Below are positions 26,377 through 47,727 of a DNA stretch of 49,904 bases, piece by piece (position 1 is the first letter of the stretch; every line of letters begins with the position of its first letter). A program made the translations under genes and the position numbers. The notes under the pieces were generated by a model, which saw nothing but the letters and a program-made list of their open reading frames with translations, did not search any database and had not been told where the DNA came from. The stretch is from a virus. The stretch is taken from positions 1-49,904 of the IMG/VR virus record IMGVR_UViG_3300046674_000267; one strand, given 5' to 3'.

Positions 26377-26682
26377 TCAGTTCGCACCGAGTTCTTTTAG
26401 GCACTCGGCGGCGAACTTCTCGCCGGCCCGGTCGAAAAATGCTTGAATCGACCGGATGCCGCCTTTGTTCTCTCTGATCCAATCTATCTTCAGGCGCAAC
26501 TCCGGCTTGATCGACAGGTTGTATTTTTTCTCCCCTTCTGCGTCGATTATCTCGGGATTTTCCCAAGGGTAGCGGGCGTTTTTTGTCGCCTCGGCGCGCG
26601 CTTGCGCCTTTAGCCGCTTGATTTCGGCGAGCGCTTCGATAAGTTGACTTTCCGCCGTTGTTGTTGTGTTCGCGACCTTCAT
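26377..26682 (-). CDS. Ribbon-helix-helix-like DNA-binding protein
   Basis: I chose ATG 26682; upstream in-frame codons would run through the control region. The 101-residue product has an N-terminal coiled coil (AESQLIEALAEIKRLKAQAR) and a C-terminal KKYNLSIKPELRLKIDWIRE...IQAFFDRA segment that fits an RHH fold. It is divergent from parA and convergent with Rz. It may regulate the partition operon, be an incompatibility or antitoxin-like factor, or be unrelated to partition. Confidence 0.6.
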   Translation of the reverse strand: MKVANTTTTAESQLIEALAEIKRLKAQARAEATKNARYPWENPEIIDAEGEKKYNLSIKPELRLKIDWIRENKGGIRSIQAFFDRAGEKFAAECLKELGAN

Positions 26683-26712: not shown

Positions 26713-26741
26713 ATAGTACAAACTTGCGCAACTATCCGCAA
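26713..26741 (-). promoter_or_regulatory. Leftward promoter with palindromic operator
   Basis: Minus strand: TTGCGG, 17 bp, TACTAT. The spacer contains a TTGCGCAA palindrome flanked by inverted ATAGT/ACTAT, which suggests repression, perhaps autoregulation by the 26377-26682 product. Confidence 0.65.
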
Positions 26742-26775
26742 GGGAGCGCCGCACACTGTGGCGCGACGGACACAG

Positions 26776-26835
26776 GCGTATTGACGTATGGGCGTATGGA
26801 TGGCCCGCCATACGTCCATACGCCTTCGCGTATCG
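26776..26835. promoter_or_regulatory. Array of six 8-bp boxes: centromere/operator (parS-like) candidate
   Basis: Boxes of consensus RCGTATGG: GCGTATTG (26776), ACGTATGG (26784), GCGTATGG (26792) in direct order with exact 8-bp phase; an 8-bp gap; then inverted CCATACGT (26808) and CCATACGC (26816); then GCGTATCG (26828). Eight-bp spacing is what dimeric RHH proteins such as MetJ and ParG use. It lies just upstream of parA, so it may serve as both operator and centromere. Confidence 0.72.
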
Positions 26836-26891
26836 CTTGAAGTTCGTGCGCCTCTCCGTTACCCTTCCGGGAAACACAACCGGGAGAGCGC

Positions 26892-27542
26892 ATGACCATC
26901 ATCGCAGTCGTGATGCAGAAGGGCGGGGTAGGCAAGACTACGGTCGCAACCAATGTCGCCGGTACGCTCGCCATGCAGGGCGGCGCCGTGCGCCTGTACG
27001 ATGCCAACCCGTATCAAAGCAGCGCGTACCAATGGGGGCAAGTGCGCCTCGATGCAGGCGTGCCGCAGAACCTGAGCGTCGTGCGCGCCGAGCGTAATTA
27101 CGGGCACGCGGTCATTGCAGACGCGCCGAATTTTGATCACATCGTCATCGACTGCCCGCCGAGCCTCGGCACTGAAAGCGAAGTCGCTGCGGCGGTCGCT
27201 GAAATCATCCTGATCCCGCTTGCGATCGGGCAATTCGACGCATGGAGTCTCGCGCAGACGGGGCAACTGATTCGCAGACGGAAAGCGCTGCCGACGCCAG
27301 TGCGCGTGATCGCGTTTGTGAACTCCGTTCCACATTACATCAAAGCGGAACTTGAGGAATCGATTGATCTGATCAAAGATATGAGCGAAGAATTCGAGTT
27401 AGGGCCAACCCTTATCGATCGCGCCGCATATCGAAGGGCGGCAAAACTCGGGCTTTCGGTGATGGAATTGCCGCCTGACTATCGCGATGGCAAGGCGATC
27501 GACGAATTCTGCACACTGATGGCGGGGGTGTTCAATGGCTAA
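26892..27542 (+). CDS. parA: ParA-family partition ATPase (short, type Ib-like)
   Basis: The 216-residue product has a deviant Walker A KGGVGKTT (residues 10-17, with signature Lys10 and catalytic Lys15), a Walker A' region (LYDANPYQS) and Walker B HIVIDCPPS. It lacks the N-terminal HTH domain of type Ia ParA. GGGAGAG precedes ATG 26892. It should move plasmid copies over the nucleoid using the DNA-binding partner encoded next, with which it overlaps by 8 bp. Its presence implies the prophage is a segregating plasmid. Confidence 0.9.
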   Translation: MTIIAVVMQKGGVGKTTVATNVAGTLAMQGGAVRLYDANPYQSSAYQWGQVRLDAGVPQNLSVVRAERNYGHAVIADAPNFDHIVIDCPPSLGTESEVAAAVAEIILIPLAIGQFDAWSLAQTGQLIRRRKALPTPVRVIAFVNSVPHYIKAELEESIDLIKDMSEEFELGPTLIDRAAYRRAAKLGLSVMELPPDYRDGKAIDEFCTLMAGVFNG

Positions 27543-27804
27543 TCCTCCGCTCAATCGCAGCATGGTCGACGCCTTTGTCAGTGCGCCGCCAGAAGCCGCG
27601 CCGAAGCCCGCGCCCGTTGCACCGCGCGCCGAGCGGCCGGGGTTCAAAGAGCGCGAGGCGATGCAGAAAATGACGGTCAACATGCCGAAAGACTTGTACG
27701 AGGAATTGCGCGTGCATATGAAACTGACCGATATGCCGATGTCGGTCGTCCTAGTCGAAGGCGCGCGCCGTGAGCTTGCGCGGCTTCGAAAGCAGGAAGG
27801 CTAA
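27535..27804 (+). CDS. Centromere-binding partner of ParA (RHH, ParG-like)
   Basis: The 89-residue product has a flexible Pro/Ala-rich N-terminus and a C-terminal RHH (KMTVNMPKDLYEELRVHMKL, then MSVVLVEGARREL). Type Ib systems pair a short ParA with exactly this kind of small protein: the mobile tail stimulates the ATPase and the RHH binds the centromere. The 8-bp box array upstream of parA is the likely target. Confidence 0.78.
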   Translation: MANPPLNRSMVDAFVSAPPEAAPKPAPVAPRAERPGFKEREAMQKMTVNMPKDLYEELRVHMKLTDMPMSVVLVEGARRELARLRKQEG

Positions 27805-28174
27805 GGGCGTCGACCATCCCGCGTCCCTATGCACGGCAGGGCACAAGCCCCTTCGGGCTTGCACCCATCCCGCGCACAGGGAACCCTCGCGGCCGTCGCC
27901 TACGGCCTGACGCGCTTCGCTTGCCTCATTGAGAAAGAGAATCAACGTCAACCCAAGCGGCATAAGACCTAGATCAAGAGCAAATGCCCGCAGAGCCGCG
28001 CCAGCACTAGGCGTTGCGTCTCATTTTTGAGGCGCGAAGTGATCAAAATTGATTCTTTTTGTGCTCACCGCAATTAGCACTTCGGGAGCCAATTTTGGCG
28101 CTGATTGTGACAACAATCTTGCGCACATGGCATCGCTTGTTTATTCTCCACGAAGTGCTCACGGAGAATCGACA
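27805..28174. other. Gene-free 370 bp: candidate plasmid replication origin
   Basis: No gene seen. Contents: hairpin CAAGCCC-CTTC-GGGCTTG (27844-27861, no T run); hairpin GGCCGT-CGCCT-ACGGCC (27891-27907); an AT-richer stretch around 28020-28075 with GCGTCTCA/TGAGGCGC and ATCAA/TTGAT inverted repeats; GTGCT...AGCAC (28061-28080); and two copies of GTGCTCACSG (28061 and about 28156), the second just before the RepL-like start. No TTATCCACA DnaA box was found. Origin function is inferred from position. Confidence 0.45.
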
Positions 28175-28645
28175 ATGACAACCAAGTTCCACGGAATGCG
28201 CAGGATATGCGACGTCGACACAGGCGACATCATGAATGTCCAGGTGGTCGACAAGAGCGTCGGCGATCGAGGCTTCAAAAAGATTTGGATGGCGCAAATC
28301 CTCGATCTGGTCGACGAGGTAGGCAACGCAAAGATGAAGGTGCTCGCCTGGCTGATTGACGAGGCGGACAGCAAGAACCAAGTGCTCGCGACGCTCACCG
28401 AGATTGCAGAGGCGACCGACACGAGCCGCGCAACGGTTCAGCGCCTGATGTCCGTGCTGAAGAAAGCAAACGTGATCGCGGAAACGCGCCGCTCGCTCTG
28501 GCGCCTGAATCCCGACGTCGTGTTCGCCGGCAGTCACGACAAGCGAATGTCGGTGCTGATCCGCTACAACAACGAGAAGCAAAAAGACCTGTTCGACGAG
28601 GCGCCGGAACCTGTAGATGCTCCGGTGCTGCGTCGCGTCGCGTAG
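28175..28645 (+). CDS. repL: RepL-like plasmid replication initiator
   Basis: ATG 28175 follows GGAG by 8 bases; 156 residues. It has KKIWMAQILDLVDEVGNAKM, a winged-helix HTH (LTEIAEATDTSRATVQRLMS, residues 74-93), then LWRLNPDVVFAGSHDKRMSV, which matches the RepL family order (HTH, then NP-x-hydrophobic-F-x-G and a final strand). RepL proteins initiate replication of small plasmids. With ParA it makes a self-sufficient maintenance block. A HTH transcription regulator is the alternative reading. Confidence 0.78.
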   Translation: MTTKFHGMRRICDVDTGDIMNVQVVDKSVGDRGFKKIWMAQILDLVDEVGNAKMKVLAWLIDEADSKNQVLATLTEIAEATDTSRATVQRLMSVLKKANVIAETRRSLWRLNPDVVFAGSHDKRMSVLIRYNNEKQKDLFDEAPEPVDAPVLRRVA

Positions 28646-38747: not shown

Positions 38748-39422
38748 CTATGCCGGTTGAATATCTACGGGTGATTTTAACGCCTTTACGCTCTCAAAGG
38801 TAGTATTTCCAGACAAATATTTCGTCGACTCGGTGAGCGCGATGCGCGGTGTGTTCGATCCGCCACTGAGCACGGCTTGCGCCTTCCGGGCGTCGCCAAT
38901 GAGCAGCGGCGGCGCAACGGGATAGCCCTGGCGCGCGTTGTAATCCTCGGGAGCGCCGATCAGCCGCGCCGGATAGGGCGGAACCTCGCCGCGCACCTTG
39001 TAGCCCTTGTACCGCGTCACGAACTCGTTTTGCGTGAACGGGTATTGATCGGAATCGACCCGGCAGAGCTTGATCCAGCCGCCCATATCCTCGACGACGC
39101 GGTGAATGAGCGGATCGTCGAACACGACCGAATACTGATCGCCGCGCGTGCGGATCGCGTAATCGACCGCCGACCATGCGATGTTGGCCGAATCCTTCGT
39201 CGACCCTTGCAGCATTTTCACGATGTCGGCGGGCTTCGGGCACCATTGCCCCGAATCCGGGTTCATCGCGTGCTGACCGACGGCGCGCTCGACCGCGGCA
39301 ATGTCGAACGGGTCCATCGCCATCGTCCAGACCTTCAACGCGAAGTCGGAAAAATCCTGACGATAGAACGCATGCACGTCCGCGAGGACGGCAGCAAGGC
39401 GAAGTTGGTCATTCTGTTTCAT
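38748..39422 (-). CDS. Replication helper protein (helicase-loader-like)
   Basis: The 224-residue product follows a DUF1376-type gene, as lambda P-like loaders follow O-like proteins. It contains LADVHAFYRQDFSDFALKVW, FDIAAVERAVGQHAMNPDSG and QWCPKPADIVKML, typical of the family. The stop-proximal DNA contains a regulatory-looking AATACTACCTTTGAG motif. Loader function is inferred. Confidence 0.66.
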   Translation of the reverse strand: MKQNDQLRLAAVLADVHAFYRQDFSDFALKVWTMAMDPFDIAAVERAVGQHAMNPDSGQWCPKPADIVKMLQGSTKDSANIAWSAVDYAIRTRGDQYSVVFDDPLIHRVVEDMGGWIKLCRVDSDQYPFTQNEFVTRYKGYKVRGEVPPYPARLIGAPEDYNARQGYPVAPPLLIGDARKAQAVLSGGSNTPRIALTESTKYLSGNTTFESVKALKSPVDIQPA

Positions 39423-40317
39423 CGTCGATCCCCTTTGCGGCCTCTTCGGCCTGAATGCGCGCCGCGAATCGCTCGACGACCGCGCGGTTATTGCGTTCGA
39501 GTTGTTCCTGCTTGCTCACGTACCCGCCCGCCTGCTGGCGCGGCCCTGCTGACCGCTGAACCTGTTGCGCAAGGTCGAATGTGCTTTGATTCCCGCCTTG
39601 CCTGCTTTGGATCATGTCGGCATTGAAGCCAGCAAACCCGCGCGCAGCGCAATGTTCGATAGCCTCGTTGAGCGAAACGCCGGCCTTTTCCGCCTCGCTC
39701 ACCGTGCGCTGAAACGCGGTCAGTGTGTTCGGCAGGCGCTTCTTTGCTCTTGCTGCGAACCAGTCGGTGATGTGCTGATCATCAACGCCTCGATCGGCGA
39801 GCCATTTGCGCGCATCGAAGCGCGAAGCGCTAGCGCTCGAAGAGCGCGCAGTGTCTTTGTCTTTGGTTACTGGTTCTTGGTTATTGGTTCTTGGTTCTTG
39901 GTTAGCTTGTGATCCGGTTTCGTCTGGGTTCCGCATGGCATCCGGATAGGAACCGGATAGGAACCCGCTGGGTTTTTCTGGGTTCTGATTAGCTTTCTTC
40001 GGGCGACCGCCCTTTTTCCCGTTCTCCCTTGCCACGTCTGCCTTTGCGTGATATTCGGCAATTTCAGCGTCGCACCGCGCGTGATGGTAGCCGTCGTCTT
40101 TGAGAGTGAACTTGTCGTCGAGCAATTCTTGTACGATCGCGCGCTGTTCATCGCCGCGAGCGCCGATTTTCTTGCATACGGCGTTCAGGTCGGCCGGCAA
40201 CGGCTGCTCGGTGTCGTAATACACCTCGATCATGTCGCGGTATATCCAGCGCTCAAGCTGCGACAGGCGCACGGTCCCGGCGTTGAAGTCGCCGATGTGG
40301 TGAGGGTAGTAATTCAC
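39409..40317 (-). CDS. Replication initiator-like protein, DUF1376 domain
   Basis: GTG 40317 overlaps the preceding stop; 302 residues. The N-terminal DUF1376/YdaU-type domain begins NYYPHHIGDFNAGTVRLSQL with ERWIYRDMIEVYYDTEQPLP. The linker has KKGGRPKKA and a slippage-prone NQEPRTNNQEPVT repeat. The C-terminal domain contains WLADRGVDDQHITDWFAARA. These proteins initiate phage replication, likely with the helper encoded next. Confidence 0.78.
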   Translation of the reverse strand: MNYYPHHIGDFNAGTVRLSQLERWIYRDMIEVYYDTEQPLPADLNAVCKKIGARGDEQRAIVQELLDDKFTLKDDGYHHARCDAEIAEYHAKADVARENGKKGGRPKKANQNPEKPSGFLSGSYPDAMRNPDETGSQANQEPRTNNQEPVTKDKDTARSSSASASRFDARKWLADRGVDDQHITDWFAARAKKRLPNTLTAFQRTVSEAEKAGVSLNEAIEHCAARGFAGFNADMIQSRQGGNQSTFDLAQQVQRSAGPRQQAGGYVSKQEQLERNNRAVVERFAARIQAEEAAKGIDDETE

Positions 40318-40652
40318 GCGCCCGCCCTTGCCGCTTCGAAAGCCTGGCGTTCCAATTCTTCCTGGTGTTCGCGGTAGTTGATCGCGTTGCACAGCGTGTC
40401 GAGGTCGACGGCGACGCCGAGCGACATAAAAATCCCGTACTGAAGCACGCGAGCGCTTGCATACGAGAGGTTCTTTTGTCCGATGCGCACCATCTCAAAG
40501 CCCCTGTAGCTCACGCCTGCGGCCTCGCAGATTGCCATCATGACGGCCGTCCCGGCTTGCTTCCAGACCCGGTGAGCGGTCAGCGCCGGCAGCGCTCGAA
40601 TCTGCGCGTCGAACTCCGCGGGAACGCCGTACATATTCTTTTGGACTTGCAT
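40314..40652 (-). CDS. Early regulator at switch (Cro/CII position)
   Basis: ATG 40652 follows GGAGAG. The 112-residue product has AVMMAICEAAGVSYRGFEMV, an HTH-like segment, and NLSYASARVLQYGIFMSLGV. It is the first gene leftward of the switch region, directly below a strong promoter, so a Cro- or CII-like role is likely. Confidence 0.62.
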   Translation of the reverse strand: MQVQKNMYGVPAEFDAQIRALPALTAHRVWKQAGTAVMMAICEAAGVSYRGFEMVRIGQKNLSYASARVLQYGIFMSLGVAVDLDTLCNAINYREHQEELERQAFEAARAGA

Positions 40653-47077: not shown

Positions 47078-47727
47078 TTCTTCCCCTTGTCAGCGGCTAG
47101 GATTGCGCGGGCGAACGGCAGTATGTGACCCGGCTCCGCGTCTCCGGGTTCTTCGGTGTAGTGGTCTTGGAAAATCTCGATAATCTGTTCATCCGTCAGC
47201 GCCGCATCCTTTTCGGCGTCCGCACGCTCAGGCGTAGGGGCTGCGGCTTCACCAAGAATGGTGCGAACTCGTCTTACTGTTTCGAGGCAGACTTTATCGA
47301 ATCCATCGTTGGCGACGTCGATCAGCACGCCCTCAAGTTCGTAGCCGAGCATTCTCAAATCCGGCTGCGCCTCACGCGGTGCAGGAACCGGAACAAAGTC
47401 CTCCATAGCGTCGATCATTCCGGAACCATAAGACGCACGCGGGGCGATAGGGGCGGCGAATACCGTGCGCTTCTCAAAAAGCCACGGATGCAAGCTGTCG
47501 AATGCGCATTTGGAGTAATCCCGAAACCTGCCTTCCTCTTCCTGAAGGCTTCTCGCTTGATAGATTGGCTCGCGCTCGTCCGCAATATGGTTGTCTTTCA
47601 TCACGAACCGTCCGCCAGCGACAGCCGCTGCGTGTTCAGCGCGGCACTCGGGCGAATGGTTCGCGTCCGTCGCACCGCAATTCATGCCAGTGCAGCGAGG
47701 TAATAAAAAATGGTCATCGGTGTGCAT
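47074..47727 (-). CDS. Phage accessory protein, paralogue of the gene at window start
   Basis: The 217-residue product has an N-terminal Cys/His-rich start (CTGMNCGATDANHSPECRAE), a middle domain, and a C-terminal domain beginning APREAQPDLRMLGYELEGVL that is identical at DNA level to the gene at 1-499 over 127 bp. The remainder (LTDEQIIEIFQDHYTEEPGD) is a common phage motif. It is the first gene below the promoter at 47779-47807. Confidence 0.78.
   Translation of the reverse strand: MHTDDHFLLPRCTGMNCGATDANHSPECRAEHAAAVAGGRFVMKDNHIADEREPIYQARSLQEEEGRFRDYSKCAFDSLHPWLFEKRTVFAAPIAPRASYGSGMIDAMEDFVPVPAPREAQPDLRMLGYELEGVLIDVANDGFDKVCLETVRRVRTILGEAAAPTPERADAEKDAALTDEQIIEIFQDHYTEEPGDAEPGHILPFARAILAADKGKK
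47256..47382. repeat. Exact 127-bp direct repeat, copy 2
   Basis: Identical to bases 1-127 of the window, inside the C-terminal coding part of the gene at 47074-47727. Confidence 0.95.

Follow-up and report, generated by a model that had tools for sequence, protein, structure and literature searches.

A phased array of RCGTATGG-like boxes as the putative centromere of a type Ib partition module in a probable plasmid prophage

To our knowledge, each of the known type Ib partition systems has its own box and its own reader. RHH dimers of MetJ occupy contiguous 8-bp sites, the arrangement proposed below; the met boxes, unlike the boxes described here, are palindromic and control methionine genes. 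In type Ib systems the centromere lies 5′ of the operon and is composed of direct and inverted repeats, and the RHH proteins also act as repressors (PMC5016525). Full activation of the pSM19035 ATPase needs at least four contiguous repeats (PMC9499535).

The stretch of DNA analyzed here, hereafter the window, comprises 49,904 nucleotides of a phage recovered by environmental metagenomics (IMG/VR, IMGVR_UViG_3300046674_000267) and carries a short array of boxes 5′ of a parA gene. We consider it about 80% probable that these boxes act both as operator and as centromere (parS) for a type Ib ParA/RHH partition module in a RepL-type plasmid prophage, with the RHH protein as their predicted reader.

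The window encodes portal, tail sheath, tape measure, terminase, Erf-like annealing and repressor proteins, and no tyrosine integrase was found in it. These features fit a temperate phage with a contractile tail that is probably maintained as a plasmid; the RepL gene next to the module points, indirectly, the same way. An Rfam scan of the window returned only a tRNA. Bases 1–127 recur exactly at 47256–47382, a size equal to a common assembly k-mer overlap; this repeat points to a genome of ~47.3 kb, circular or with terminal redundancy, to which the contig adds a divergent tail of 2.5 kb. Separately, six copies of the 7-bp TTGGTT(A/C) lie at 39863–39904, inside a primosomal/O-like gene (39409–40392, minus strand), and may mark a lytic replication origin, as in lambda O.

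The par module and its box array

Profile matches identify the ParA gene (Pfam AAA_31/CbiA and PHROG 164, ParA-like), and along its whole length the product matches ParF of TP228. As in type Ib systems, it is a short Walker ParA that lacks an N-terminal HTH domain. Relatives of this ParA on genome contigs reach ~36% identity at best and have different upstream repeats where these were inspected.

The array holds four exact and two single-mismatch RCGTATGG-like boxes, six in 60 bp (Table 1). The initial annotation had described three direct boxes, an 8-bp gap, two inverted boxes and one more direct box, and this layout is present. It had placed all six in exact 8-bp phase, which holds for boxes 1–5; box 6 starts 52 bp from box 1 (4 mod 8) and is thus shifted by 4 bp. 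A further correction concerns the first and last boxes, each of which has one mismatch to RCGTATGG. Read as tetramers, the array runs GCGT ATTG, ACGT ATGG, GCGT ATGG, ATGG CCCG, CCAT ACGT, CCAT ACGC, CTTC, GCGT ATCG, followed by CTTGAAGT. The grid is better described as one of 4 bp, on which 8-bp units may flip at half-unit steps.

Table 1. Coordinates of the array, the presumed promoter and the genes of the module and its replication neighbor
Feature	Coordinates	Strand	Details
Box 1	26776..26783	+	GCGTATTG, 1 mismatch to RCGTATGG
Box 2	26784..26791	+	ACGTATGG, exact
Box 3	26792..26799	+	GCGTATGG, exact
Gap	26800..26807		ATGGCCCG; 8 bp, one box length; register kept
Box 4	26808..26815	-	ACGTATGG, exact, inverted
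Box 5	26816..26823	-	GCGTATGG, exact, inverted; many relatives have an inverted box at the same place (-76)
Box 6	26828..26835	+	GCGTATCG, 1 mismatch; 4 bp off the 8-bp register; directly 5′ of the presumed -35
Presumed -35	26837..26842	+	TTGAAG; conserved in RCGTATGG-type relatives
Presumed -10	26860..26865	+	TACCCT; 17-bp spacer; called from conservation
parA	26892..27542	+	216 aa; Walker ATPase without N-terminal DNA-binding domain; P-loop at residue 10
RHH centromere-binding protein gene (putative)	27535..27804	+	89 aa; overlaps the parA stop by 8 bp; residues 1–44 tail, 45–86 RHH domain
RHH DNA-binding domain	27667..27792	+	Residues 45–86; strand KMTVNM, then two helices
RepL-type plasmid replication gene	28175..28645	+	Pfam E 1.4e-31; neighbor of the module, exchanged in relatives, outside the par module proper

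Box matches with at most one mismatch occur across the whole window at the rate expected by chance (62 found, 62.5 expected). Their clustering and phasing are what set the array apart. With six boxes in 60 bp it exceeds all of 40 windows simulated by a Markov model, where the maximum was three, and with five in register it exceeds a simulated maximum of two. An unbiased register statistic for any 8-mer, computed on the window alone, was borderline (4, against 3–4 in 12 simulations). Judged from sequence, the array is not a product of chance, and the conclusive support for this is its conservation in relatives rather than the window statistics alone. No second box array was found elsewhere in the window.

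The presumed parA promoter is placed by conservation and was not among the calls of a generic sigma-70 scan. The palindrome TTGCGCAAGTNTGNACTA, lying between -35 and -10, is shared by the presumed promoter of the divergent gene (26714–26742, minus strand) and the parA promoter of a related clade with RCGTRTGC boxes (L087–L094, L105), and is perhaps a site for a common repressor.

Conservation of the array in relatives

A ParA scan of viral contigs yielded 27 close relatives, 72–97% identical. Those of the RCGTATGG type keep box arrays 5′ of parA, with number, order and orientation varying; across relatives the number of boxes per array ranges from 2 to 7. We counted boxes with up to one mismatch, and distances from the parA ATG, in 16 loci: the window, 13 others of the same ParA type, and two with a second ParA type (L147 and L150). 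For each of the 80 boxes found, the distance to the ATG is a multiple of 4 bp; they represent 42 distinct combinations of position, strand and sequence at 18 distinct positions, and, as the relatives come from a few related metagenomes, locus counts here and below are not counts of independent events. Box density in these loci is 52.6 per kb 5′ of parA, compared with 0.24 between -420 and -160 and 0.78 over the 400 bp that open parA. With scrambled boxes, counts of 10 or more hits were rare, and the two scrambles that exceeded 20 hits are overlapping shifts of the box itself.

The initial annotation had noted the RHH-style phased geometry beside parA, and a phased array is indeed kept across the 16 loci. 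It had also named loss of the boxes in relatives that keep parA as grounds for abandoning its reading; when this comparison was run, the array proved to be retained wherever DNA 5′ of parA was readable among loci of this RHH type (16/16). Overlaps of 4 bp between boxes occur in some relatives (CCATACGTATGG), and there 8-bp dimers could not occupy every box simultaneously. We take the 4-bp phase to be selected, since inverted boxes on the same grid would not be explicable by tandem duplication alone.

A gene-blind scan gave a concordant picture. IMG/VR was searched for tandem boxes with CGTATGGRCGTATGG, and 34 stretches were returned. Five of these (L197, L212, L213, L214 and L215) have 4–7 boxes on the 4-bp grid, all beside a ParA gene of the window's family, and clusters of at least five boxes occurred only beside this family. 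The remaining stretches have 2–4 boxes with no ParA or RHH motif nearby and look chance-like. Within records of the window's type, tandem box pairs lie at parA except for one isolated pair in G010, and no other box arrays were found in the remainder of these records.

These distributions bear on whether the array might be an operator only, through which the RHH protein represses parA-RHH, with the true centromere elsewhere in the genome. The array does end 1 bp before the presumed -35, and RHH partition proteins double as repressors (PMC5016525). However, neither the window nor other records of the same type contain another box array, the length of the array and its variable box number (2 to 7) exceed the needs of an operator, and in known type Ib systems an upstream array is commonly the centromere (PMC5016525, PMC9499535). 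We regard the operator-only explanation as unlikely, and favor a combined centromere and operator.

The protein that goes with the boxes

In the relatives examined, parA is followed by an RHH gene (MANPPLNRS...) that overlaps the parA stop by ~8 bp. Box type sorts with the strand of this RHH protein in 22/22 loci: K-[T/S] accompanies RCGTATGG in 16/16 and R-A accompanies RCGTRTGC in 6/6, the change of box type representing a single event. The clade with RCGTRTGC boxes has the RHH strand QRMAVNMP in place of QKM[T/S]VNMP, and this covariation is the basis for the predicted recognition of the boxes by the RHH protein.

Neighboring genes do not sort in this way. One upstream gene family is common to nine loci (L087, L088, L090, L092, L094, L098, L104, L147 and L150), of which six have RCGTRTGC boxes and three RCGTATGG, and one downstream replication-gene group, composed of the L087-type loci with L095 and L150, mixes both box types. 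Exchange of the upstream gene, of the replication gene or of parA itself leaves the array in place. In L147 and L150, a second ParA type (that of L150 is 30% identical to the window ParA) and a different RHH tail are combined with a closely similar RHH domain, the same boxes and the same promoter; DNA similarity to the window family covers the array and promoter, is lost either ahead of parA or in its first 90 bases, and picks up again in the RHH gene. Two more distant loci, L151 and L152, share the second ParA and tail type and have a diverged RHH domain. A search with the second ParA type found no family members beyond those already known. The exchange of ParA and tail in L147, L150, L151 and L152 indicates that ParA and the tail travel together, as do the RHH domain and the boxes. 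By these comparisons of gene content, the array follows one gene only, the RHH gene.

The same exchanges weigh against reading the boxes as iterons of a plasmid replication origin bound by the neighboring RepL-type protein. Iterons are short phased repeats, and the RepL-type gene, identified by profile, lies ~1.3 kb downstream; yet the same box type occurs alongside Rep_3, RepL and other winged-helix replication genes, one replication-gene group has both box types, and a separate conserved non-coding element lies 5′ of RepL and is common to Burkholderia phage FLC5, where a RepL-type gene is also found. An iteron function is accordingly very improbable, and we return to the RHH protein as the predicted reader. 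The non-coding element (27815–27960, between the RHH gene and RepL) is also present in L085, L099, L104 and L147, is 84% identical over 77 bp in FLC5, and is possibly a RepL origin or leader. Throughout L081–L107, the exchangeable replication genes 3′ of parA-RHH (Rep_3, RepL and other winged-helix types) amount to cassette exchange behind one par module.

Both RHH-like genes flanking the site had been put forward as candidates in the initial annotation, and only one of them withstands the comparison. The divergent gene at 26377–26682 is adjacent to the array, and the C-terminal half of its product can be read by eye as strand-helix-helix, so the boxes might be the operator of an RHH-like repressor encoded there. 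However, our search found no relative of this gene near any other array or in the viral collection, and the arrays persist; no library calls it RHH; and its own presumed promoter (26714–26742) carries a different palindrome, TTGCGCAA. Of the alternatives weighed here, this is the least probable.

Assignment of the 27535–27804 product to the RHH proteins is good but not proven, and a small RHH protein directly 3′ of parA is a type Ib feature. The window protein has no match in Pfam. Of 17 family members, eight match Pfam RHH_3 (best E 0.0043) and 14 have a weak match to an Arc-like PHROG (best E 0.014); profile matches are weak overall, with best E-values of 0.0017–0.0043. An AlphaFold monomer has helices at residues 52–65 and 69–88 (pLDDT about 90), no strand, and a tail of low confidence. 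Foldseek with this model gave no PDB match, VIA-align was likewise empty, and a PDB profile search returned chance matches only. The protein had no detectable match in the named phage and plasmid collections searched, and the gene was not found in 399 genomes from the order to which a Methylophilus genome belongs, a search run without a positive control. Single distant partners (Acinetobacter ParB, Sphingobium) were considered as relatives and rejected, as hhalign produced no alignment. Within the window's ParA type, Arg8 of the low-pLDDT tail is invariant, and the tail type changes together with the ParA type.

Proposed mechanism and comparison with known systems

We infer that dimers of the RHH protein occupy adjacent boxes, each dimer on one box of 8 bp and in whichever orientation that box has, much as omega sits on its 7-bp heptads, so that dimers would coat the 60-bp array. 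The array lies against the parA promoter, and its coating would therefore also repress transcription of parA-RHH. The disordered tail of the bound protein, in which Arg8 is presumed by analogy with ParG to be an arginine finger, would reach the nucleoid-bound ParA ATPase and trigger ATP hydrolysis, and the action of ParA would carry copies of the plasmid prophage apart before cell division. Among the points that count against this mechanism, the window array has three contiguous boxes plus two, where pSM19035 needs at least four for full ATPase activation, and the overlapping boxes of some relatives do not allow every box to be filled at once.

More tentatively, and at somewhat less than even odds, the centromere may be written in 4-bp words, each RHH strand reading one tetramer (RCGT or ATGG). 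Units would then be able to flip, to overlap (as in CCATACGTATGG) and to come and go 4 bp at a time, and a shift in specificity would take one tetramer (ATGG to RTGC) and two strand residues (K to R, T/S to A).

The module would add to the RHH partition systems a sequence family with no match in the named collections of phages and plasmids that were searched, with a putative centromere, reader and ATPase identified together in phages that are uncultured and probably plasmid-borne. It is valuable chiefly for a natural domain exchange in which the RHH protein's ATPase-contacting tail and its DNA-reading domain part company, and which would so map the two contacts to separate parts of a ~90-residue protein. 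The clade with the changed box offers a minimal pair for how RHH strands may set centromere specificity, and hence plasmid incompatibility.

Among described systems, delta/omega/parS of pSM19035 (RHH type Ib, Firmicutes) likewise has an RHH protein, a small ParA, and contiguous short non-palindromic repeats, direct and inverted, that overlap promoters. It differs in having six sites of 7-bp WATCACW heptads (PMC9499535), against one array of 8-bp RCGTATGG boxes on a 4-bp grid here, and in transcribing its genes separately, where parA and the RHH gene overlap here; the difference in boxes rules out membership in omega/parS. ParF/ParG/parH of TP228 resembles the module in its ATPase, in an array 5′ of the operon and in tetramer-sized words, and ParG is an RHH protein whose flexible tail carries an arginine finger (PMC7308502), as proposed here. 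The parH boxes are degenerate tetramers with AT-rich spacers (PMC7308502), whereas here the second tetramer is itself conserved (RCGT and ATGG). A PDB profile search did not return ParG, and we do not place the protein in the ParG sequence family.

Modules of NCBIfam NF041546 (e.g., Acinetobacter plasmid pIC001B) match the window ParA over nearly its whole length and also have a small DNA-binding gene downstream and, by eye, short repeats 5′ of parA. The window ParA scores 126.8 bits, below the curated cut-off of 180; the DNA-binding partner is not alignable and the repeat words differ. In Burkholderia phage KS14 (P2-like; L185), a small ParA (ParA-like gp40), 32% identical to the window ParA, is also preceded by a repeat-rich stretch, with GTTGATAT-like repeats at ~11-bp spacing by eye; these repeats are likely a partition site of another design.

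The initial annotation had suggested a new centromere type. The box sequence is new, and the predicted working principle is that of type Ib partition. The direct and inverted repeats of the putative centromere lie 5′ of the par operon as in type Ib systems, and in its sequence-level features the module is one that would work like type Ib partition, within which the 4-bp grid may be a variant.
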